Shown: positions 7,879 through 15,773 of the stretch, piece after piece
Numbering within the stretch: position 1 is the first letter of the stretch
How the letters are laid out: each line of letters opens with the position of its first letter
Assembly (NCBI RefSeq): GCF_030409225.1
Contig: NZ_JAUFPK010000001.1
Location: forward strand, 39,230-103,229
Length of the DNA: 64,000 nucleotides
From: Aquisalimonas lutea
GTDB lineage: Bacteria; Pseudomonadota; Gammaproteobacteria; Nitrococcales; Aquisalimonadaceae
Direction of reading: 5' to 3'
Notes under the pieces: model-generated
Seen by the model: the letters and a program-made list of their open reading frames with translations, nothing else
What the model was told of the DNA's origin: nothing
Database searches by the model: none
Position numbers and translations under genes: made by a program

Positions 7879-8647
7879 GGGCGGCCGCCTCGTCGCCGGC
7901 ATGCTCGTGGAGCACCCGGTGCGGTACGCCGTGGGCGATGAGCTCCACGGGGCAGCCGTAGGCCTCCGCCAGGTCGGCGTGACTCAGGCGGCCGGAGCCG
8001 TGATAGAACAGACGCCGGTTGACACAGGCGATCTGCTTGACCTGGGCGGCGAAACTGGTGATGTCGTGGGTGATCACCACCACGGGGATGCGCTGGTTGA
8101 GCTCGGCGAGCAGCGATTCCAGTACCTGGCGGGTCTCCACGTCCACGGAGGCCGTGGGCTCGTCCAGGAACAGGATCTCCGGCTCCCCGGCCAGGGCACG
8201 TGCGATCAGGGCGCGCTGGAGCTGCCCGCCGGAGAGCTCGGCCACGGGCACGTCCGCCTGGCGCCCCAGGTGCAGCCGCTCCAGGGTGTGCGCCACGGCC
8301 CGGTGATCGGCCCGCGTGTAGCGCCCGATCCAGCCGCCGCGGCCCAGGCGGCCGGTGAGCACGGCGTCCCGCAGCCGCAGCGGGAAGTTCTTGTCGAAGG
8401 TGGAGAACTGCGGCACGAAGCCGATCGCCCCGCGGGCGATGCCGGACGGCCAGCGGATGGTCCCCCGCCAGGGCGTCTCCAGGCCCAGGATCAGGCGCAG
8501 CAGTGTCGTCTTGCCGCCCCCATTGGGGCCGATGATGGCCAGGAAGTCCCGCGGGCCGATGCGCAGGTCCACGTCCCGGAGAACCGGCTCGCGGTCGTAG
8601 CCGAAGCTCAGCCCCCGGACTTCCAGGATGGCATCGTCGCCGCTCAT
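7871..8647 (-). CDS. znuC: zinc ABC transporter, ATP-binding subunit
   Basis: ATPase that powers zinc import with ZnuB. The 258-aa protein has Walker A GPNGGGKT (40-47), Q-loop FVPQFS (78-83), signature LSGGQ (138-142), Walker B ILFLDEP (158-164) and the switch histidine in VVITHDI. The C-terminal tail after about residue 215 is longer than a bare ATPase core and has several His residues (HEHAGDEAAAHE), as in ZnuC, where it is thought to sense or handle zinc. It overlaps znuA by 4 bp (ATGA) and znuB by 8 bp. Confidence 0.95.
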   Translation of the reverse strand: MSGDDAILEVRGLSFGYDREPVLRDVDLRIGPRDFLAIIGPNGGGKTTLLRLILGLETPWRGTIRWPSGIARGAIGFVPQFSTFDKNFPLRLRDAVLTGRLGRGGWIGRYTRADHRAVAHTLERLHLGRQADVPVAELSGGQLQRALIARALAGEPEILFLDEPTASVDVETRQVLESLLAELNQRIPVVVITHDITSFAAQVKQIACVNRRLFYHGSGRLSHADLAEAYGCPVELIAHGVPHRVLHEHAGDEAAAHE

Positions 8648-9633
8648 CGCGTCTCCGCATCGTGGATCGCCTCGGCGAACCGCCGCAGGTTGCCCGCCCA
8701 GTCCCGGGCCAGGGGATCGGCGGTCGCCACCACGGCGCCGATCTCCTCGGCGATGGTACGGGCGCTGCGCTCGGAGAAGCCCTGCTGGACGAAGATCACC
8801 TGCACCTCCTCCTGTCGCGCCTGCTCGATGAAACCGGCAAGCTGCGACGGCGACGGATCGCGCCCCCCGGATTCGATGGCCACCTGCTCCAGGTCGTAAT
8901 CGCGGGCAAAATACCCCCAGCCCGGATGATTGACAACGAAGCGCCGCCGCTCGAGGCCCCCGAGCAGGTCACGGATGTCCTCGTCCAGGGCGTCGATCTC
9001 CGCGCGCACCGCTTCCAGCCCGTCGCGGTAGTGTGCCTCGCCGGCCGGATCCGCCGCGATCAGGGCCTCGGCGACACGCCCCGCCGCAGCCCGCATGATC
9101 GCCGGCGACACCCACAGGTGGGGGTCCGTCTCGCCGTGGGCATGGCCCTCGTGTCCAGCCTCATCCCCATGCTCCGCGTGGTGTTCGTGGTCGTGGTCGT
9201 GGTCATGGTCGTGCTCGTGGCCGTGCTCGCCAGCCCCGTGCCCGTCGTGGTGCCCCGCGTGATCATCGCCGTGCCCGCCGTGCTCCTGCATGGCCAGCAC
9301 ATCGACGCCCTGCGAAAGATCCACCACCTGCACGTCATCGCGCCGCGACTCCAAGTGCTGGAGGAAACGGCGCTCGAAGGCGAAATCCGGATGCCCGACC
9401 TTGAAGTAGACGCGTGCCTCGTCGAACGCCACCAGCCGCCGCGGCGCCAGCGAGAAGGTATGCGGTGAGCCCCCCGACTCGATCATGACCGAGACATCCA
9501 CCCGGTCGCCGCCGATGCGCTCCACCAGGTAGGCCTGGGGCGGGACGCTGACCGTCACCGGCATGGCCGCCTGGACAGCGGCCGGGAGCAGCAAGGCCAC
9601 CACTGCGGCAAGGCCGCGCACGAGAGCATTCAT
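8644..9633 (-). CDS. znuA: zinc ABC transporter, periplasmic binding protein
   Basis: Periplasmic zinc-capture protein that delivers Zn to ZnuB. The 329-aa sequence has a signal peptide (residues 1 to about 23, cleavage near VQA-AMP). Family zinc ligands are visible at His58 (SPHTF), His172 (DPHLW) and His236 (VNHPGWGY). Between residues 118 and 166 lies a long His/Asp/Glu loop with runs of HDHDHDHDHE, longer and more regular than in many ZnuA proteins. This loop is typical of zinc rather than manganese family members and is thought to gather metal. It is first in the znuACB operon, downstream of a candidate Zur site. Confidence 0.94.
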   Translation of the reverse strand: MNALVRGLAAVVALLLPAAVQAAMPVTVSVPPQAYLVERIGGDRVDVSVMIESGGSPHTFSLAPRRLVAFDEARVYFKVGHPDFAFERRFLQHLESRRDDVQVVDLSQGVDVLAMQEHGGHGDDHAGHHDGHGAGEHGHEHDHDHDHDHEHHAEHGDEAGHEGHAHGETDPHLWVSPAIMRAAAGRVAEALIAADPAGEAHYRDGLEAVRAEIDALDEDIRDLLGGLERRRFVVNHPGWGYFARDYDLEQVAIESGGRDPSPSQLAGFIEQARQEEVQVIFVQQGFSERSARTIAEEIGAVVATADPLARDWAGNLRRFAEAIHDAETR

Positions 9634-9809: not shown

Positions 9810-10241
9810 TCAGGCCACGCGCTGCTTTTCCCGGATTTCCTCCAGGGTCTTGCAGTCGATGCACAGCGTCGCTGTCGGCCGCGCCTCGAGACGCCGCAGC
9901 CCGATTTCCACGCCGCACTGCTCGCAGTAGCCGTAGTCCTCGCGGCGGATCGCCTCGAGCGTCTGATCGATCTTGCGGATCAGCTTGCGCTCGCGATCCC
10001 GCGTGCGCAGCTCCAGGGCGAATTCCTCCTCCTGGGTGGCACGATCCGCCGGGTCCGCATAGTTGGTGGCATCGTCGCGCATGTGATGGACGGTCCGCTC
10101 GACCTCCTCCTGGAGCTGGCGCTTCCACGCCAGCAACAGCTGGCGGAAATGCTCCAGCTGCTCGGCGTTCATGTACTCCTCGCCGTCACTCGCCTGGTAC
10201 GGCGTGAAGTCCTCAACCGGCATCCTGTTTTTCTGATTCAT
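9810..10241 (-). CDS. dksA: RNA polymerase-binding transcription factor DksA
   Basis: Binds the RNA polymerase secondary channel and, with ppGpp, reshapes rRNA and amino-acid gene transcription. The 143-aa protein has the coiled-coil tip motif DPADRA with acidic residues Asp63 and Asp66, followed by [10 protein letters not shown]. It also has a complete four-cysteine zinc finger (Cys106, 109, 127, 130), so it is the zinc-containing form, not the Cys-poor DksA2. The start at 10241 has a strong GGAGGAACTGCC leader; an upstream ATG at 10280 adds residues foreign to the family. Strong tandem hairpins follow the gene. Confidence 0.95.
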
Positions 10242-10421
10242 GGCAGTTCCTCCTTCGTTCACGCCCCGCCAAAGTGTCATGGCCGGCTTCCCTGCCCGTA
10301 CGAGCGGGGCGCCTCCGCGACCCGGGTGACAAAGCCTTTCCGGGGCCGCGCATTCATGCTGCCGTCCGCCACGGACGGCTCCTTTATAGCAGCGCCTCGC
10401 TGCGAGCGCAAAGCCCGCTGC

Positions 10422-11510
10422 TTACTCCGTGCGCTGCTCGAGAACCCCCTGCAGCCGGGACGCCATGTCCCGCACCGAGCGCTCCGTGGTCTCCCAGTCG
10501 ATGCAGGCATCGGTAATGGAGACCCCGTAGGCCAACTCGGAGACATCGTCGGTGAGCTTCTGGTTCCCCCAGCCGATATTGCTCTCGACCATCATCCCCA
10601 CAAGGGAGCGATTGCCTTCCGTGATCTGATTCACGAGATTGTCGAGAACCAGCGGCTGCAGCGCCGGGTCCTTGTTGCTGTTGGCGTGGCTGCAATCCAC
10701 GACGATATTCCGCGGCAGCCCGCCCTCGGTAAGCTCCTTTTCGCACAGGGCAACGCTCACGGAGTCATAGTTGGGGGTTCCACCGCCGCCACGCAAGACG
10801 ATGTGGCCGTACGGGTTGCCGCGGGTGCGCACGATGGAGCACTGGCCCTGGTAGTTGATCCCCAGGAAGCTGTGGGGGTTGGCGACGGAGTGCAGGGCAT
10901 TGATCGCCGTCTGCAGGTTGCCGTCCGTGCCGTTCTTGAAGCCCACCGGCGTGGACAGGCCACTGGCCATCTCCCGGTGCGTCTGGGACTCCGTGGTGCG
11001 CGCGCCGATGGCCGTCCAGGTGATGAGGTCCTGGATGTACTGCGGGATAATCGGGTCCAGCGCCTCGGTGGCGGTGGGCAGTCCCATCTCGGCGCACTCC
11101 AGCAACAGCTGGCGGGCGTTGTACAGGCCCTCGTCGATGCGGAAGGAGTCGTCCATGTGCGGATCGTTGATGAAGCCCTTCCAGCCGACGGTGGTGCGCG
11201 GCTTCTCGAAGTACACGCGCATGATCACCAGCACGGAATCGGCCACCTCGTCGGCCAGGGCCTTGAGCCGCTGCGCGTAGTCACGCGCGGCCGCCATGTC
11301 GTGGATGGAGCACGGCCCGACCACCAGGAAAACGCGCGGATCGCGGCGGTCGAGGATGTTCTGCACCGCTCGGCGGCCGCCGAGCACGGTCTCCCGCGCC
11401 GCCGCGCTCAGCGGCAGGCGCCCGTGGACCTCCTCCGGCGTGGGCAGCAACTCCTGGGTAACGACGTTGACGTCGTCAATCGAGCCATTGACGGCAGCTG
11501 GATCAACCAT
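10422..11510 (-). CDS. 3-deoxy-7-phosphoheptulonate synthase (class I)
   Basis: DAHP synthase, the first step of the shikimate pathway: condenses phosphoenolpyruvate and erythrose 4-phosphate. The 362-aa protein has the class I alpha motifs GPCSIHD, EKPRTTVGWKG, GARTTESQTHREMASG and VDCSHANSNKD. It is slightly longer than E. coli AroG (350 aa). Which aromatic amino acid feeds back on it (AroF, AroG or AroH type) cannot be read safely from the sequence, so no symbol is given. It lies 81 bp downstream of the ClpX-like gene on the same strand. The start at 11510 follows AGGTGAG. Confidence 0.94.
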   Translation of the reverse strand: MVDPAAVNGSIDDVNVVTQELLPTPEEVHGRLPLSAAARETVLGGRRAVQNILDRRDPRVFLVVGPCSIHDMAAARDYAQRLKALADEVADSVLVIMRVYFEKPRTTVGWKGFINDPHMDDSFRIDEGLYNARQLLLECAEMGLPTATEALDPIIPQYIQDLITWTAIGARTTESQTHREMASGLSTPVGFKNGTDGNLQTAINALHSVANPHSFLGINYQGQCSIVRTRGNPYGHIVLRGGGGTPNYDSVSVALCEKELTEGGLPRNIVVDCSHANSNKDPALQPLVLDNLVNQITEGNRSLVGMMVESNIGWGNQKLTDDVSELAYGVSITDACIDWETTERSVRDMASRLQGVLEQRTE

Positions 11511-11591: not shown

Positions 11592-12761
11592 CTACGCTGC
11601 CGACGAATCGGCGAAGACGCGGCGGCGGGGTACGAGCCGGGCCGCCACCTTGTCGCCGTCCACGTCCACATTCACGCGCTCGACGTCCGCGCGTCCCGGC
11701 ACCTCGAACAGGGCGTCGCGCAGGACGCCCTCGACCTCCGCGAACAGCCCGCGCGCGCCCATGCCCCGCCGCAGGGCGTTGCCGGCCATCCGCTCCAGTG
11801 CCGCGCCGGAGACCTGCAGCGCGCAGCCGTCCGCGGCCAGCAGCGCCTCCATCTGGCGAACCGGGGCATCCGGCGGCTCGGTGAGCAGCCGGCGGAGGAC
11901 GTCGATACCGGGGGGATCCAGGGGCACATGGACGGGGAACCGGCCGACCAGCTCCGGGATCAGGCCCTGCCGCAGCAGCCAGCGGGCGTCGTCCTCCCCC
12001 GGGCGCGCGCCGCCCGCGGCTCTCCCGTCCCGGGCGAACACGCCGCCGCCGACGAACAGCACGTCCCGCGTGCTGACGCTCAGCCAGCGGCCGTTGGGGC
12101 GCTGCACGCCGACCCGGCGCCCCTCGAGGCACTGCAGGAGGGTCTGCTGCACGCCGGCCCCGCGCCCGTCCGGGTCCGGCCCGCCCAGCTTGTCCAGCTC
12201 GTCCAGGTAGACGATGCCGCGGGCGGCGCAGGCCGGATCCCAGTCGCAGTCCCGCAGCAGGGCCTGGATCACGCTCTCGATGCCGGCCCCCTGATGGCCC
12301 GACGGGGTCAGCGTGGTGGCGTCCACCGCCGCGAAAGGCACGTCCAGGCACCGCGCCAGGGACTCCAGCAACCGGGTCTTGCCGCTGCCGGTGGGCCCGC
12401 TGAGCAGTACGTTGCACTTGCCGGGGCCCGCGTCGGTGCCGTGCATGCCCCGCCAGGCGAGCCGCTTGTAGTGATTGTGGACCTGCACCGCCAGTACGCG
12501 CTTGGCCTGCTCCTGGCCGACCACGCGGTGGTCCAGCCAGGCGTGGAGCCGGGCCGGGGACGGCAGCGCGCGCACGCGCTCGCGCAGGATCGCGTGCTGA
12601 TGATCCGCCAGCTCGTCCGCGAGAACGGCCGCGCAGTCGTTGCACATGGCGGCTTCGTGGCCGGCCACGAAGCCGTCGACGGCCTCGGCGTCGCGGCGGC
12701 AGAACGCGCAGATCTCGATGCTCGTGACAAGATCGTCGTGACGAAAGGCGGACAGGTCCAT
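11592..12761 (-). CDS. divergent ClpX-like AAA+ ATPase lacking pore and ClpP loops
   Basis: Clearly related to ClpX across its length (389 aa). It has an N-terminal zinc finger (Cys18, 21, 40, 43), Walker A GPTGSGKT (122-129), Walker B IVYLDELD (183-190), an arginine finger in GLIPELVGR (Arg274) and sensor-2 GAR (335-337). Three substrate- and partner-handling parts differ. The pore-1 loop GYVG of ClpX reads GHQG (155-158), so the aromatic residue that grips substrate is gone. The RKH loop is deleted (NGRW at 223-226). The segment that carries the IGF loop for docking ClpP is missing, about 25 residues shorter between FAR (242-244) and GLIPE. Known ClpX biology says these parts are needed for unfolding with ClpP, so I infer an ATPase with a different job. 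It is not the canonical clpX, which sits beside clpP in most genomes. Confidence 0.85.
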   Translation of the reverse strand: MDLSAFRHDDLVTSIEICAFCRRDAEAVDGFVAGHEAAMCNDCAAVLADELADHQHAILRERVRALPSPARLHAWLDHRVVGQEQAKRVLAVQVHNHYKRLAWRGMHGTDAGPGKCNVLLSGPTGSGKTRLLESLARCLDVPFAAVDATTLTPSGHQGAGIESVIQALLRDCDWDPACAARGIVYLDELDKLGGPDPDGRGAGVQQTLLQCLEGRRVGVQRPNGRWLSVSTRDVLFVGGGVFARDGRAAGGARPGEDDARWLLRQGLIPELVGRFPVHVPLDPPGIDVLRRLLTEPPDAPVRQMEALLAADGCALQVSGAALERMAGNALRRGMGARGLFAEVEGVLRDALFEVPGRADVERVNVDVDGDKVAARLVPRRRVFADSSAA

Positions 12762-12931
12762 GCATGGGCTCCCGGCGATCGACCCCGCGGTTCGGAATCA
12801 CTCCCTGCTCCCTGCAACGGCAACCGGGGCGATTTCTTTAAGGAAACGCTGAGCAATTCCTTCTAGAGTCGTCGCCGGCGCCCTCCAGGCGGTATGATGG
12901 GCGTACGGACTTCAAGGCAACGAGGCTACCC

Positions 12932-13198
12932 ATGGCCGTCGATCGCAAGCTGCTCGAGATTCTCTGCTGCCCCGTCACCAAGGTCCCCGTGGAGCCCCTG
13001 CCCCGGGAACGCCTCGACGCGCTCAACGCGCTGGTCGAGCAGGGGCAGGCGCTCTACCAGGACGGCACCCCCGTGACCGGGCCGGTGACCGAGGCCCTGA
13101 TCACGGAGAACGGCGAACGGATCTACCTGGTGGAGGACGGCATTCCGGTGATGCTGGAAGAGCGCGCCCTCACCGCGCGGGGGCTCGGCTGGATCTGA
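12932..13198 (+). CDS. Trm112-like protein (YcaR/UPF0434 family)
   Basis: Small 88-aa protein beginning MAVDRKLLEILCCPVTK, with the family CCPVT motif, a middle insert and the C-terminal ENGERIYLVEDGIPVML signature. Bacterial members (YcaR) have a Trm112-type fold. In eukaryotes and archaea Trm112 stabilises and activates several methyltransferases, including Mtq2, which methylates the termination factor. Only the first two cysteines are present, so zinc binding as in yeast Trm112 is unlikely. It ends 40 bp before prmC on the same strand. A partnership with PrmC is suggested only by this position. Confidence 0.88.
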   Translation: MAVDRKLLEILCCPVTKVPVEPLPRERLDALNALVEQGQALYQDGTPVTGPVTEALITENGERIYLVEDGIPVMLEERALTARGLGWI

Positions 13199-13238
13199 CC
13201 TGAGGCCTGACAAGATTTCTGGGAAGGTTCGTACCTAC

Positions 13239-14060
13239 ATGCAACTGCTGCGGCAGGGCCGCAACCGGCTAGCGGGACGCGAGGCCGACTGGCTGCTCGC
13301 CCATGCGGCCGGGCAGCCGGCGGCCCTGCTGCGGGCCGGCGTGGACGAGGCCGCCCCGTCGCGGGTCGCCGCGGCCTTCCAGCGGCTGCTGGACCGGCGG
13401 GCCGGCGGCGAGCCTCTCGCCTACCTGCTGGGCACGCAGCCGTTCCGGTCGCTGGACCTGGCGGTCAGCCCGGATGTGCTCATCCCGCGCCCGGAGACGG
13501 AGCAGCTCGTGGACCACGCCCTCGCGCTGATGCCCCGGGATGCGCCGGTCCGGGCGCTGGACCTGGGGACCGGCAGCGGCGCCATCGCCCTGGCCCTGGC
13601 CAGTGAGCGGCCGCGCTGGCACGTCACCGCGGTGGAGCACAGCGCCGAGGCCCTGGCCGTGGCCCGCGCCAACGGCGAGCGCCTGGGCCTGGCCGTCGAC
13701 TGGCTCGCCGGTGACTGGTTCAGCGCGGTAACGACAGGGCCCTTCGACCTGATCGTCAGCAACCCGCCCTACGTGGCCGCGGACGATCCCGATCTGGCCG
13801 CCGAGGTCGCCGCCCACGAGCCGCCAACGGCCCTGCGGGCGGGCGCGGACGGCCTGGCGGCGCTGCGGATCATCGCCGGCGGGGCGCCGGCGCACCTGCG
13901 CCCGGGCGGCTGGCTGATGGTCGAGCACGGGGCCCGGCAGGCGGCGGCCGTGCGGGGGCTGCTGCAGCGCGCCGGCATGACCGCGGTGGCCAGCCAGCAC
14001 GATCACCAGGGCCATGACCGTTTTACCGCCGGCCGGGCGGAGGAGAGCGACAATGGATGA
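13239..14060 (+). CDS. prmC: release factor glutamine methyltransferase
   Basis: Methylates the glutamine of the GGQ motif in release factors RF1 and RF2 using S-adenosylmethionine. The 273-aa protein has an N-terminal helical domain, the linker motif LIPRPETEQLVD (81-92), the SAM-binding motif DLGTGSGAIALAL (108-120) and the catalytic NPPY (175-178). The N-terminus is slightly shorter than E. coli PrmC; the frame stays open upstream but has no better start. prmC commonly follows hemA-prfA. Here it is about 6 kb away, with the znu, dksA, aro and clpX-like genes in between, although moeB still follows it. Confidence 0.94.
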   Translation: MQLLRQGRNRLAGREADWLLAHAAGQPAALLRAGVDEAAPSRVAAAFQRLLDRRAGGEPLAYLLGTQPFRSLDLAVSPDVLIPRPETEQLVDHALALMPRDAPVRALDLGTGSGAIALALASERPRWHVTAVEHSAEALAVARANGERLGLAVDWLAGDWFSAVTTGPFDLIVSNPPYVAADDPDLAAEVAAHEPPTALRAGADGLAALRIIAGGAPAHLRPGGWLMVEHGARQAAAVRGLLQRAGMTAVASQHDHQGHDRFTAGRAEESDNG

Positions 14061-14853
14061 CAGCGGACTGCTGCGCTACAGCCGCCAGATCATGCTGCCG
14101 GAAGTGGACATGGCCGGCCAGGAGGCCCTGTCCGGCAGCCACGTGCTCATCGTCGGCCTGGGCGGCCTGGGCTCGGCCGCAGCCCTGTACCTGGCCGCCG
14201 CCGGCATCGGCACCCTGACCCTGGCCGACGACGACCGGGTGGATCTCACCAACCTGCAGCGCCAGATCCTGCACGGCGCCGCGGACCTGGAGCGACCCAA
14301 GACGGAGTCCGCCCGGGACCGGCTGCACGCCCTCAACCCGGAGCCGGAGCTGCGCCTGCTGTCACGACGCCTGGAAGGCGACGCGCTGCTGGAGGCGGTC
14401 GCGGCGGCGGACGTGGTCCTGGACGGCACCGACAACTTCGCCACGCGCTTCAACGTGAACCACGCGTGCGTGATCACCGGCACGCCCCTGGTCTCCGGCG
14501 CCGCCATCCGCCTGGAGGGGCAGCTGGCCGTTTTCCGCCCGGATCGGGGCGGCGCCTGCTATGCCTGCCTGTTCCCGCCGGAGGCCGCGGACGAGGCACC
14601 CCGGGAGAGCTGCAGCGAGACCGGGATTCTCGGCCCGGTGGTCGGGGTCATCGGCAGCATGCAGGCCCTGGAGGCCATGCGCATCATCACCGGCTTCGGC
14701 ACCCCGGCGGACGGCCGCTTCAGCGCCTGGGACGCCGCCAGCGGCGAATGGCAGCGCTTCACCGTGGCCCGGGATCCGGATTGCAGCGTCTGCGGCGAAG
14801 CCCATGCCGGGGACGCAACCCCCACCTCACCGCAACTGAAAACTGAAAACTGA
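14053..14853 (+). CDS. moeB: adenylyltransferase of the MoeB/ThiF/HesA family
   Basis: Activates the C-terminus of a small ubiquitin-like sulphur carrier (MoaD or ThiS) by adenylation. The 266-aa protein has the nucleotide loop GLGGLG (35-40), DNFATR (127-132), zinc cysteines in CYAC (169, 172) and CSVC (244, 247), and the conserved Cys187 in ESCSETGILGP. The ATG at 14053 overlaps the prmC end by 8 bp. MoeB (molybdopterin) is favoured over ThiF by the prmC-moeB order. The last codons, QLKTEN, are encoded by a heptanucleotide tandem repeat, so this tail is not a conserved part of the protein. Confidence 0.88.
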   Translation: MDDSGLLRYSRQIMLPEVDMAGQEALSGSHVLIVGLGGLGSAAALYLAAAGIGTLTLADDDRVDLTNLQRQILHGAADLERPKTESARDRLHALNPEPELRLLSRRLEGDALLEAVAAADVVLDGTDNFATRFNVNHACVITGTPLVSGAAIRLEGQLAVFRPDRGGACYACLFPPEAADEAPRESCSETGILGPVVGVIGSMQALEAMRIITGFGTPADGRFSAWDAASGEWQRFTVARDPDCSVCGEAHAGDATPTSPQLKTEN

Positions 14854-14870
14854 AAACTGAAAACTGAAAA
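14834..14870 (+). repeat. Heptanucleotide tandem repeat, 5 copies of ACTGAAA
   Basis: Five perfect head-to-tail ACTGAAA units (14835-14869) span the 3' end of moeB and its stop codon and run into the gap before hslO. The period of 7 is not a multiple of 3, so each gain or loss of a unit changes the reading frame of the moeB tail. A-rich repeats of this kind stand out in this GC-rich window. Confidence 0.9.
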
Positions 14871-14891
14871 CACCACGATGCTGTCACGGTG

Positions 14892-15773
14892 TCAGTGCAG
14901 CGTCGTCTCCGGCGGGCCGATACCGCCCTCGCTGAACAGCTGCTCGACATCCACGGCGTCGAAGCGGTAGGTGGTGCCGCAGAACTCGCACGCCGCCTCG
15001 ATCTGGCCCTGCTCGGCGAGAATGTCCCGGGCCTCCGCGTAGCCCAGACCCTGGAGCACGCCGGCCAGGCGCTCGCGGGAGCAGTGGCAGCCGAAGCGCA
15101 CCGGATCCGCCGGGAACACGCGGATATCCTCCTCGTGGAAGAGCCGCCGGATCACTTCCTCGGGACCGAGCCCGAGCAGCTCGTCCTCGGTGATGGTCCC
15201 GGCCAGGTGCTCGGCCCGGTTCCAGGCATCGGCATCGTCGGCGTCCTCGCCCGGCAGTCGCTGGAGCAGCAGCCCCGCCGCCCGCTCGCCGTCGCAGGCG
15301 AGCCACAGACGGGTGGGCAGCTGCTCCGACTGGGCGAAGTAGTTCTCCACCGCCGCGTTCAGGCGCTCGGTCTCCAGGGGCACGATGCCCTGGTAGCGGT
15401 TGCCGCCGTCCTCGGGATCGATGGTGATCGCCAGGTAGCCGCCGCTGCACAGGGCATGCAGCGGCGTATCCGCCGCCGGCTCGCCCTCGAGCCGGGCCAG
15501 GCCGCGCAGCTCCTGCTCGTGGCTCGCCCGCGCCACCAGCATAGGCACCGGCCCCTCGCCCTGCATTTGCAGGATCAGCGCGCCGCGGAACTTGACGATG
15601 GACGACAGCAGCCCGGCCGCCGCCAGGGCCTCGCCCAGCAGCCGCGTAACCGCTTGCGGATAGGACCGGCGCGCGAGCACCTCGGCGAGGGTCTGATCCA
15701 GGTGGATCAGCTCCCCCCGCACGTTGGCGTGCTCGAAGACGAAGCGCTGCAGGGTGTCGGGACGGATGGGCAT
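14892..15773 (-). CDS. hslO: redox-regulated chaperone Hsp33
   Basis: Holdase chaperone switched on by oxidative unfolding, when its zinc centre loses metal and forms disulfides. The 293-aa protein has the four zinc cysteines Cys229 and Cys231 (CHC) and Cys262 and Cys265 (CEFC) in the C-terminal domain, and the core motif YFAQSEQLPTRLWL. Length matches the family. It converges on moeB and ends just past the heptanucleotide repeat. The 16-bp gap from gatB suggests read-through from the gatCAB operon. Confidence 0.95.
   Translation of the reverse strand: MPIRPDTLQRFVFEHANVRGELIHLDQTLAEVLARRSYPQAVTRLLGEALAAAGLLSSIVKFRGALILQMQGEGPVPMLVARASHEQELRGLARLEGEPAADTPLHALCSGGYLAITIDPEDGGNRYQGIVPLETERLNAAVENYFAQSEQLPTRLWLACDGERAAGLLLQRLPGEDADDADAWNRAEHLAGTITEDELLGLGPEEVIRRLFHEEDIRVFPADPVRFGCHCSRERLAGVLQGLGYAEARDILAEQGQIEAACEFCGTTYRFDAVDVEQLFSEGGIGPPETTLH

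Follow-up and report, generated by a model that had tools for sequence, protein, structure and literature searches.

The Mtq2/N6AMT1–Trm112 holoenzyme of eukaryotes and archaea joins a Trm112-family protein to a HemK-family glutamine methyltransferase. According to excerpts of PMC6796863, N6AMT1 residues I48, L72, M74, A83, L87, P99, V100, I101, L108 and L112 are buried against Trm112 in the human complex, the Trm112 side of the interface comprises L4, L8, L9, F41, M45, I113, P114 and L117, and N6AMT1 is without the N-terminal release-factor-recognising domain. Excerpts of a review (PMC5372719) describe bacterial Trm112 as having no known function and the PrmC of bacteria as being active by itself; the available portion of PMC9425974 holds one archaeal mention. 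Two bacterial relatives have deposited structures. The first, YcaR/UPF0434 (E. coli ycaR; PDB 2JS4, 2JR6, 2PK7), is a protein of ~60 amino acids, mostly with CPxC cysteines, which is encoded beside kdsB. The second, XF2673 of Xylella fastidiosa (PDB 2K5R), is an uncharacterised structural-genomics entry, and a literature search on that name found no paper. No title or abstract start among the literature matches listed concerned a bacterial Trm112–PrmC link, which is not proof of absence from print.

Here we describe a locus of Aquisalimonas lutea in which a long form of trm112 lies directly upstream of prmC. It was analysed within a 64,000-nucleotide stretch of DNA, referred to as the window (Table 1). 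What is new is a Trm112 variant and its order-wide coupling to prmC, rather than a demonstrated new enzyme.

Table 1. The trm112–prmC pair and neighbouring features, in window coordinates
Feature	Position	Strand	Basis and remarks
znuA (ZnuA gene near the pair)	8644–9633	−	PF01297 213.9 bits
dksA	9810–10280	−	PF21157 113.8 bits, PF01258 45.4 bits; neighbour in paired relatives
aroG-type DAHP synthase	10422–11510	−	PF00793 270.5 bits; neighbour in paired relatives
ClpX-like AAA+ gene, divergent from trm112	11592–12761	−	PRK05342 290.9 bits, below cut-off 359; ClpX zinc-finger match
trm112-like gene, long form (88 aa)	12932–13198	+	ORF with ATG start; PF03966 31.4 bits
trm112–prmC gap, 40 bp (stop to ATG)	13199–13238	+	GGGAAGG before ATG resembles a ribosome-binding site (by eye)
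prmC, peptide chain release factor N5-glutamine methyltransferase (273 aa)	13239–14060	+	TIGR03534, PrmC_N and MTS domains, NPPY motif
moeB/thiF-family adenylyltransferase	14053–14853	+	PF00899 251 bits; PRK05690 301.6 bits; overlaps prmC end by 8 nt
hslO (Hsp33), convergent, at the end of the block	14892–15773	−	PF01430 276 bits

The Trm112-like protein matches PF03966 (Trm112p) along the entire profile (positions 1–40 of 40; 31.4 bits against a cut-off of 22). A profile search of the A. lutea genome gave no other match above the cut-off; a second, sub-threshold match lies inside a 743-aa frame. An earlier note on this DNA had spoken of a Trm112-like protein of the YcaR family located 40 bp before prmC. 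The gap, the common strand and the Pfam family stand; the attribution to YcaR does not. Against the YcaR equivalog model NF008806 the protein scores 22.2 bits, far under the cut-off of 126 bits, and we rejected YcaR identity on this score; it is also of a longer form and has two cysteines fewer. Among the best 80 of 91 relatives in named genomes, the nearest are those of three Aquisalimonas MAGs (84–89% identity), and the median length of the window protein and these 80 relatives is 88 aa.

In the alignment of these 81 long-form rows L7, L8, L11, C12, C13, P14, L56, T58 and P72 are invariant, including in lineages without an adjacent prmC. Position 16 is T or S and position 58 is T in all 81 rows, both columns being C in E. 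coli YcaR, the single reference used for the cysteine columns, and the CxxC pair is absent from 81 of 81. The window protein thus lacks the zinc-binding cysteines of bacterial and archaeal Trm112 members, and the long form would be without the usual zinc site and, presumably, without zinc. Loss of zinc cysteines is also described for metazoan Trm112 in excerpts of PMC5372719, and human Trm112 likewise has a non-zinc-binding motif, as stated in excerpts of PMC6796863. Two short YcaR-type proteins encoded beside kdsB (L108:1432-1623 and L112:1432-1623) are also without the second cysteine (CPVTKG); since they have T there, this loss is not limited to the long form. In two further loci, L023 and L027, the long-form trm112 directly follows znuC/znuB-like transporter genes (the ABC ATPase of L027 is assigned by Pfam, the znu names by eye). 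A cysteine-poor Trm112 next to zinc uptake genes, as in these loci and near the ZnuA gene of the window, would fit a zinc-saving role.

The AF2 model of the window protein (pLDDT 80.8, pTM 0.67) has a helix at residues 25–37, in the stretch that is missing from YcaR. The Foldseek search with this model ranked 2K5R first, followed by UPF0434 entries and the Trm112 chains of the archaeal methyltransferase complexes 6ZXW and 6F5Z. Only 2K5R had E < 0.001 (E 4.1e-8, TM-score 0.75 by query, 38% identity, yet an rmsd of 8.9 over 82 columns). A Trm112 zinc-knuckle fold is thus predicted for the window protein, with the reservation that the top match superposes at this rmsd. The sequence profile likewise matches 2K5R (5.1e-26 over positions 3–87). 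XF2673 has the same long form and is the closest solved structure by both sequence and fold.

The class sample comprised 143 gammaproteobacterial families, each represented by a single genome. A PF03966 match above cut-off is present in 128, and the long form, called by a match span of ~200 nt as opposed to ~120 nt, is found in seven of them (G000, G012, G042, G072, G093, G104 and G111). All seven carry that match as their only one, and a single PF03966 match is also usual across the class sample. One contig of another genome bears two equal-scoring PF03966 matches 1.7 kb apart (G213:C17:6036-7885), possibly a tandem duplication.

The second gene of the pair encodes a bona fide PrmC: the product scores 278.8 bits against TIGR03534 (RF_mod_PrmC; cut-off 199.1) and retains the N-terminal release-factor-recognising domain (PrmC_N, PF17827; 44 bits, residues 3–65). 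This domain had been described in the earlier note as slightly short, which is correct. The shortening is a loop deletion of ~6 residues common to the window and the three Aquisalimonas relatives (L003–L005); among the 18 other aligned paired loci, a gap at this loop occurs only in L012, and there it is one column wide. As a local deletion unrelated to the pairing, it was rejected as a mark of Trm112 dependence. A CTG at 13200 was considered as an alternative start of PrmC and not adopted: the ATG at 13239 was kept because of its plausible ribosome-binding site (judged by eye) and because it aligns near the L003 start.

In 21 paired relatives, with prmC starts picked by the analyst among the listed candidates, the distance between the trm112 stop and the start of prmC ranges from −8 to +34 nt. 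It is −8 to +13 nt in 19 of the 21 loci and negative, i.e. the genes overlap, in eight; looser junctions are those of L016 (+34 nt), L025 (+23 nt) and the window (+40 nt). Such short distances and overlaps are the usual picture of translational coupling, which may accordingly be expected to operate in the cell. The promoter scan of positions 12760–14900 found no sigma-70-like promoter, and the sole terminator-like site in this stretch is on the opposite strand. A trm112–prmC transcript is therefore not marked out by signals, and that the two genes share one is likely rather than evident.

The pairing holds throughout the order Nitrococcales. Of the 54 order genomes sampled, 50 contain a Trm112 match with E ≤ 0.01, in 49 cases above the cut-off, and in 48 of these 50, across five families, prmC is directly downstream of trm112 on the same strand. 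In the remaining two the contig stops 137 and 300 nt past the Trm112 match, and the two genes were never found apart (48/48 contigs that are long enough). The four order genomes without a Trm112 match are also without a strong PrmC match: G178 has none at 1e-50, G168 and G155 reach 180 and 193 bits, and the match of G145 (207.9 bits, profile positions 2–222) resembles that of the second HemK-family copy in G144, which is of the same genus. The trm112–prmC locus is probably missing from these four assemblies.

Outside the order the pairing is rare. In the class sample Trm112 is matched at E ≤ 0.001 in 129 of the 143 genomes, and a listed prmC accompanies it in 122; of these 122, 120 were compared computationally, and the other two (G011, with its match under the cut-off, and G079) by eye, the genes being on different contigs. 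Adjacency was found in three genomes, two inside the order and G104 outside it, which amounts to 1/120 outside the order. The phylum sample, which shares several genomes with the class sample, has Trm112 in 116 of 120 genomes and a listed prmC in 114 of those, and the genes are adjacent in the window genome only (0/113 others). Of the 80 named loci (the best 80 of 91 relatives), 19 have trm112 followed by prmC; the contig of L011 is too short to tell and some others also end nearby. The possibility raised with the earlier note, that the neighbourhood is found in this genome alone, is thereby disposed of: in addition to the order genomes, the pair occurs in G104 and L053, which do not belong to the main clade.

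The tree of the long form was built from 100 of 113 rows, identical ones having been removed, with L011 and L155 unlabelled as their contigs end too early. The prmC label needs two changes on it, and one clade, with support 98/75, contains 38 of the 40 paired rows. The pairing is thus far above chance yet inherited. The two remaining paired rows, L053 and L113, are placed outside the main clade on long branches, and these placements would count against an account with a single origin.

The surroundings suggest how the pair may have come about. The common block of the paired loci, with arrowheads giving gene direction, is hemA>prfA> (<znuA) <dksA<aroG(<clpX-like) >trm112>prmC>moeB <hslO<gatB<gatA. 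The ClpX-like gene adjoins trm112 in many paired loci and is missing in others; by eye, its product in the window is without the IGF loop, which we take to be the ClpP-docking motif of ClpX. Also by eye, the 3' end of the window moeB carries a short head-to-tail repeat of gaaaact units (14830–14875). The block is not rigid: aroG is flipped or relocated in L031, L113 and L114, moeB points the other way in L006, L009 and L134, and no moeB was found within the flank, in some cases a short one, in L008, L053, L113, L114, L129 and L142. In 26 of 29 unpaired gammaproteobacterial genomes prfA is upstream of prmC on the same strand at a distance of at most 1.5 kb, L162 being more distant than the rest; this group was hand-picked (35 genomes searched, 30 loci, the paired L184, which is G104, excluded). 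Where the flank of a paired locus is long enough, prfA is on the far side of aroG and dksA and, in some loci, of znuA as well.

Since prfA is near prmC elsewhere and here, though still close by, is split from it by dksA–aroG–trm112, a single insertion or fusion would account for the arrangement. We consider it reasonably probable that the pair is an inherited operon rearrangement, made once, which gave rise to a coupled trm112–prmC unit, with Trm112 serving other methyltransferases and PrmC acting alone. The usual hemA–prfA–prmC(–moeB) series would have been split as a dksA–aroG–trm112 segment came between prfA and prmC; prmC would then have become dependent on trm112 for its transcription and for translational coupling, and the unit, followed by moeB in most relatives, would have been inherited by the whole order. 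Trm112 would bind and stabilise one or more class I methyltransferases, most likely other than PrmC, and PrmC would modify RF1 and RF2 by itself. That the pair is never apart while aroG and moeB move could reflect selection on the pair rather than passive inheritance, and this retention amid rearrangement is the strongest point for a functional link.

How such a link is read depends on what trm112 is coupled to elsewhere. Of the 30 class-sample loci with the highest PF03966 scores, 28 have kdsB downstream, 22 of them at −4 to +16 nt; in these loci, each of at most 3.1 kb, the proteins of the window neighbourhood other than Trm112 found no match. The ycaR and kdsB genes of E. coli K-12 overlap by 4 nt. 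Long-form trm112 has nadC behind it in 12 loci (family checked for L042), the distance being −4 to +8 nt in 11, and a redoxin gene in five, at close range in four. Three Woeseia-type loci (L063, L079 and L080) share another context, in which long-form trm112 stands after a YidD gene and before DNA polymerase III delta and nadD-like genes (families checked in L079; no delta gene was detected in L063). As kdsB and nadC, the products of which are not methyltransferases, are coupled just as tightly in other lineages, tight coupling is a habit of the family and not specific to prmC. This bears on a purely regulatory explanation in which Trm112 and PrmC make no contact and the level of PrmC is matched to another translation-linked methylation system served by Trm112. 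The stop/start overlaps in 8 of 21 loci and the persistence of the pair while other neighbours move would suit it. However, the coupled gene varies by lineage (kdsB, nadC, redoxin, prmC), so that no common regulatory logic is evident, and in the window itself the gap is 40 bp; we regard this explanation as unlikely.

The equivalents of the Trm112 hub face, mapped from the human residues by motif and by eye, rank with the best-conserved residues of the long form: L7, L8 and P72 in 81 of 81 rows, L75 in 80 and I71 in 78, in lineages with and without an adjacent prmC. Furthermore, three ORFs of 342–361 aa from other gammaproteobacterial genomes (L120:3083-4111, L121:3541-4623 and L122:3237-4322) fuse a Trm112-like N-terminal segment to a class I methyltransferase domain; Methyltransf_11 is above cut-off in all three, with Trm112p at 29.9, 21.2 and 21.5 bits, respectively, against a cut-off of 22. 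More PF03966 matches inside long frames occur in the phylum sample, and Trm112–methyltransferase fusions in bacteria are also mentioned in excerpts of the review (PMC5372719). Because the methyltransferase-binding face is conserved and fusion ORFs occur, long-form Trm112 is likely a hub for some methyltransferase, and the enzymes it serves are probably others than PrmC.

By analogy with Trm9, CmoM would be a natural partner of Trm112, and in E. coli cmoM lies four genes downstream of ycaR. For A. lutea we rejected this candidate, the best match in the genome reaching 40.6 bits against a cut-off of 366.

PrmC itself could be the enzyme served. Trm112 would then be a genuine partner of PrmC throughout the order, as it is of Mtq2/N6AMT1, binding the edge of the methyltransferase domain and either stabilising the enzyme or aiding release-factor recognition. 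The coupled order-wide pairing, which survives rearrangement of its surroundings, and the conserved hub face speak for such a partnership; the methyltransferase side speaks against it. We located the ten N6AMT1 patch positions in PrmC by motif anchors (the SAM site and NPPY) and fixed offsets; as the anchor spacings differ slightly (25 versus 26 and 16 versus 19), L112 is the least certain position. Whether PrmC is paired or not, polar or charged residues predominate at the equivalents of I48, L72, L87, I101 and L112; in paired PrmC they also do so at that of M74, which makes six of the ten positions when paired. The equivalents of A83, P99 and L108 are hydrophobic in all PrmC, that of V100 in 59% of the paired proteins and in 76% of the unpaired ones. 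Overall, the ten positions are slightly less hydrophobic in paired PrmC (mean difference −0.48, a value exceeded by 98.5% of random 10-column sets), and PrmC is without the hydrophobic Trm112-binding patch whether paired or not.

We also modelled the two proteins jointly with AlphaFold, using the neighbouring frames of L018 with the stop read through. The model (pLDDT 92.9, pTM 0.80; alignment partly misaligned, no control pair) shows no clear docking but leaves room for some, which was judged from pTM and secondary structure, the output being without coordinates or inter-domain error. No strand forms at Trm112 residues 73–75, where a beta-zipper of the C-terminal Trm112 strand with methyltransferase beta3 would be expected, and the short E71–72 is the same as in Trm112 alone, a result to be read in light of the flawed alignment. 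That alignment contained 52 separate Trm112 rows of 81, 15 separate PrmC rows and five joined rows. In the PrmC-only rows the N-domains were laid over Trm112 (visible in 5 rows inspected of 15); because of this misalignment, the PrmC N-domain of the model rests on the five joined rows.

In contrast to N6AMT1, PrmC keeps an N-terminal domain of its own, and bacterial PrmC is stated in excerpts of PMC5372719 to be active alone; the equally tight coupling of kdsB and nadC in other lineages argues in the same direction. With the Mtq2/N6AMT1–Trm112 holoenzyme the present pair has in common a Trm112-family protein that retains the hub-face residues and a HemK-family glutamine methyltransferase. We hold a genuine order-wide partnership to be decidedly unlikely. 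A related proposal is that a Trm112 devoid of the usual zinc site became a working subunit or stability partner of PrmC in the clade to which Aquisalimonas, Halorhodospira and Spiribacter belong, converging on Mtq2–Trm112 and locked in place by translational coupling; this seems to us about as doubtful. Of the bacterial Trm112–methyltransferase partnership suggested in the earlier note, the general idea is consistent with the conserved face and the fusions; its PrmC-specific version is at odds with the patch and with the kdsB and nadC coupling, and as such is unsupported, possible as it is, with a small chance of being right.

That long-form Trm112 is a decayed, non-functional relative retained merely as a leader reading frame for prmC translation can hardly be correct: two cysteines are gone in 81 of 81 rows and the junctions are tight, but nine residues are invariant in the same rows, also in lineages where prmC is not adjacent, and a folded relative has been deposited as an NMR structure (2K5R).

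The inherited rearrangement, with Trm112 as a hub for methyltransferases other than PrmC, thus remains our preferred explanation. Two findings should be kept apart: the existence of a long form that lacks the usual zinc cysteines and takes the place of YcaR in 7 of the 128 gammaproteobacterial families with a match, and the pairing of its gene with prmC across the order. For the Trm112 family, gene neighbourhood on its own should not be taken as partnership. The long form offers a handle on the function of bacterial Trm112, because it has kept the methyltransferase-binding face and lost the zinc site. Finally, the order-wide pair constitutes a natural and easily cloned system for a yes/no test of whether PrmC uses Trm112 in bacteria.
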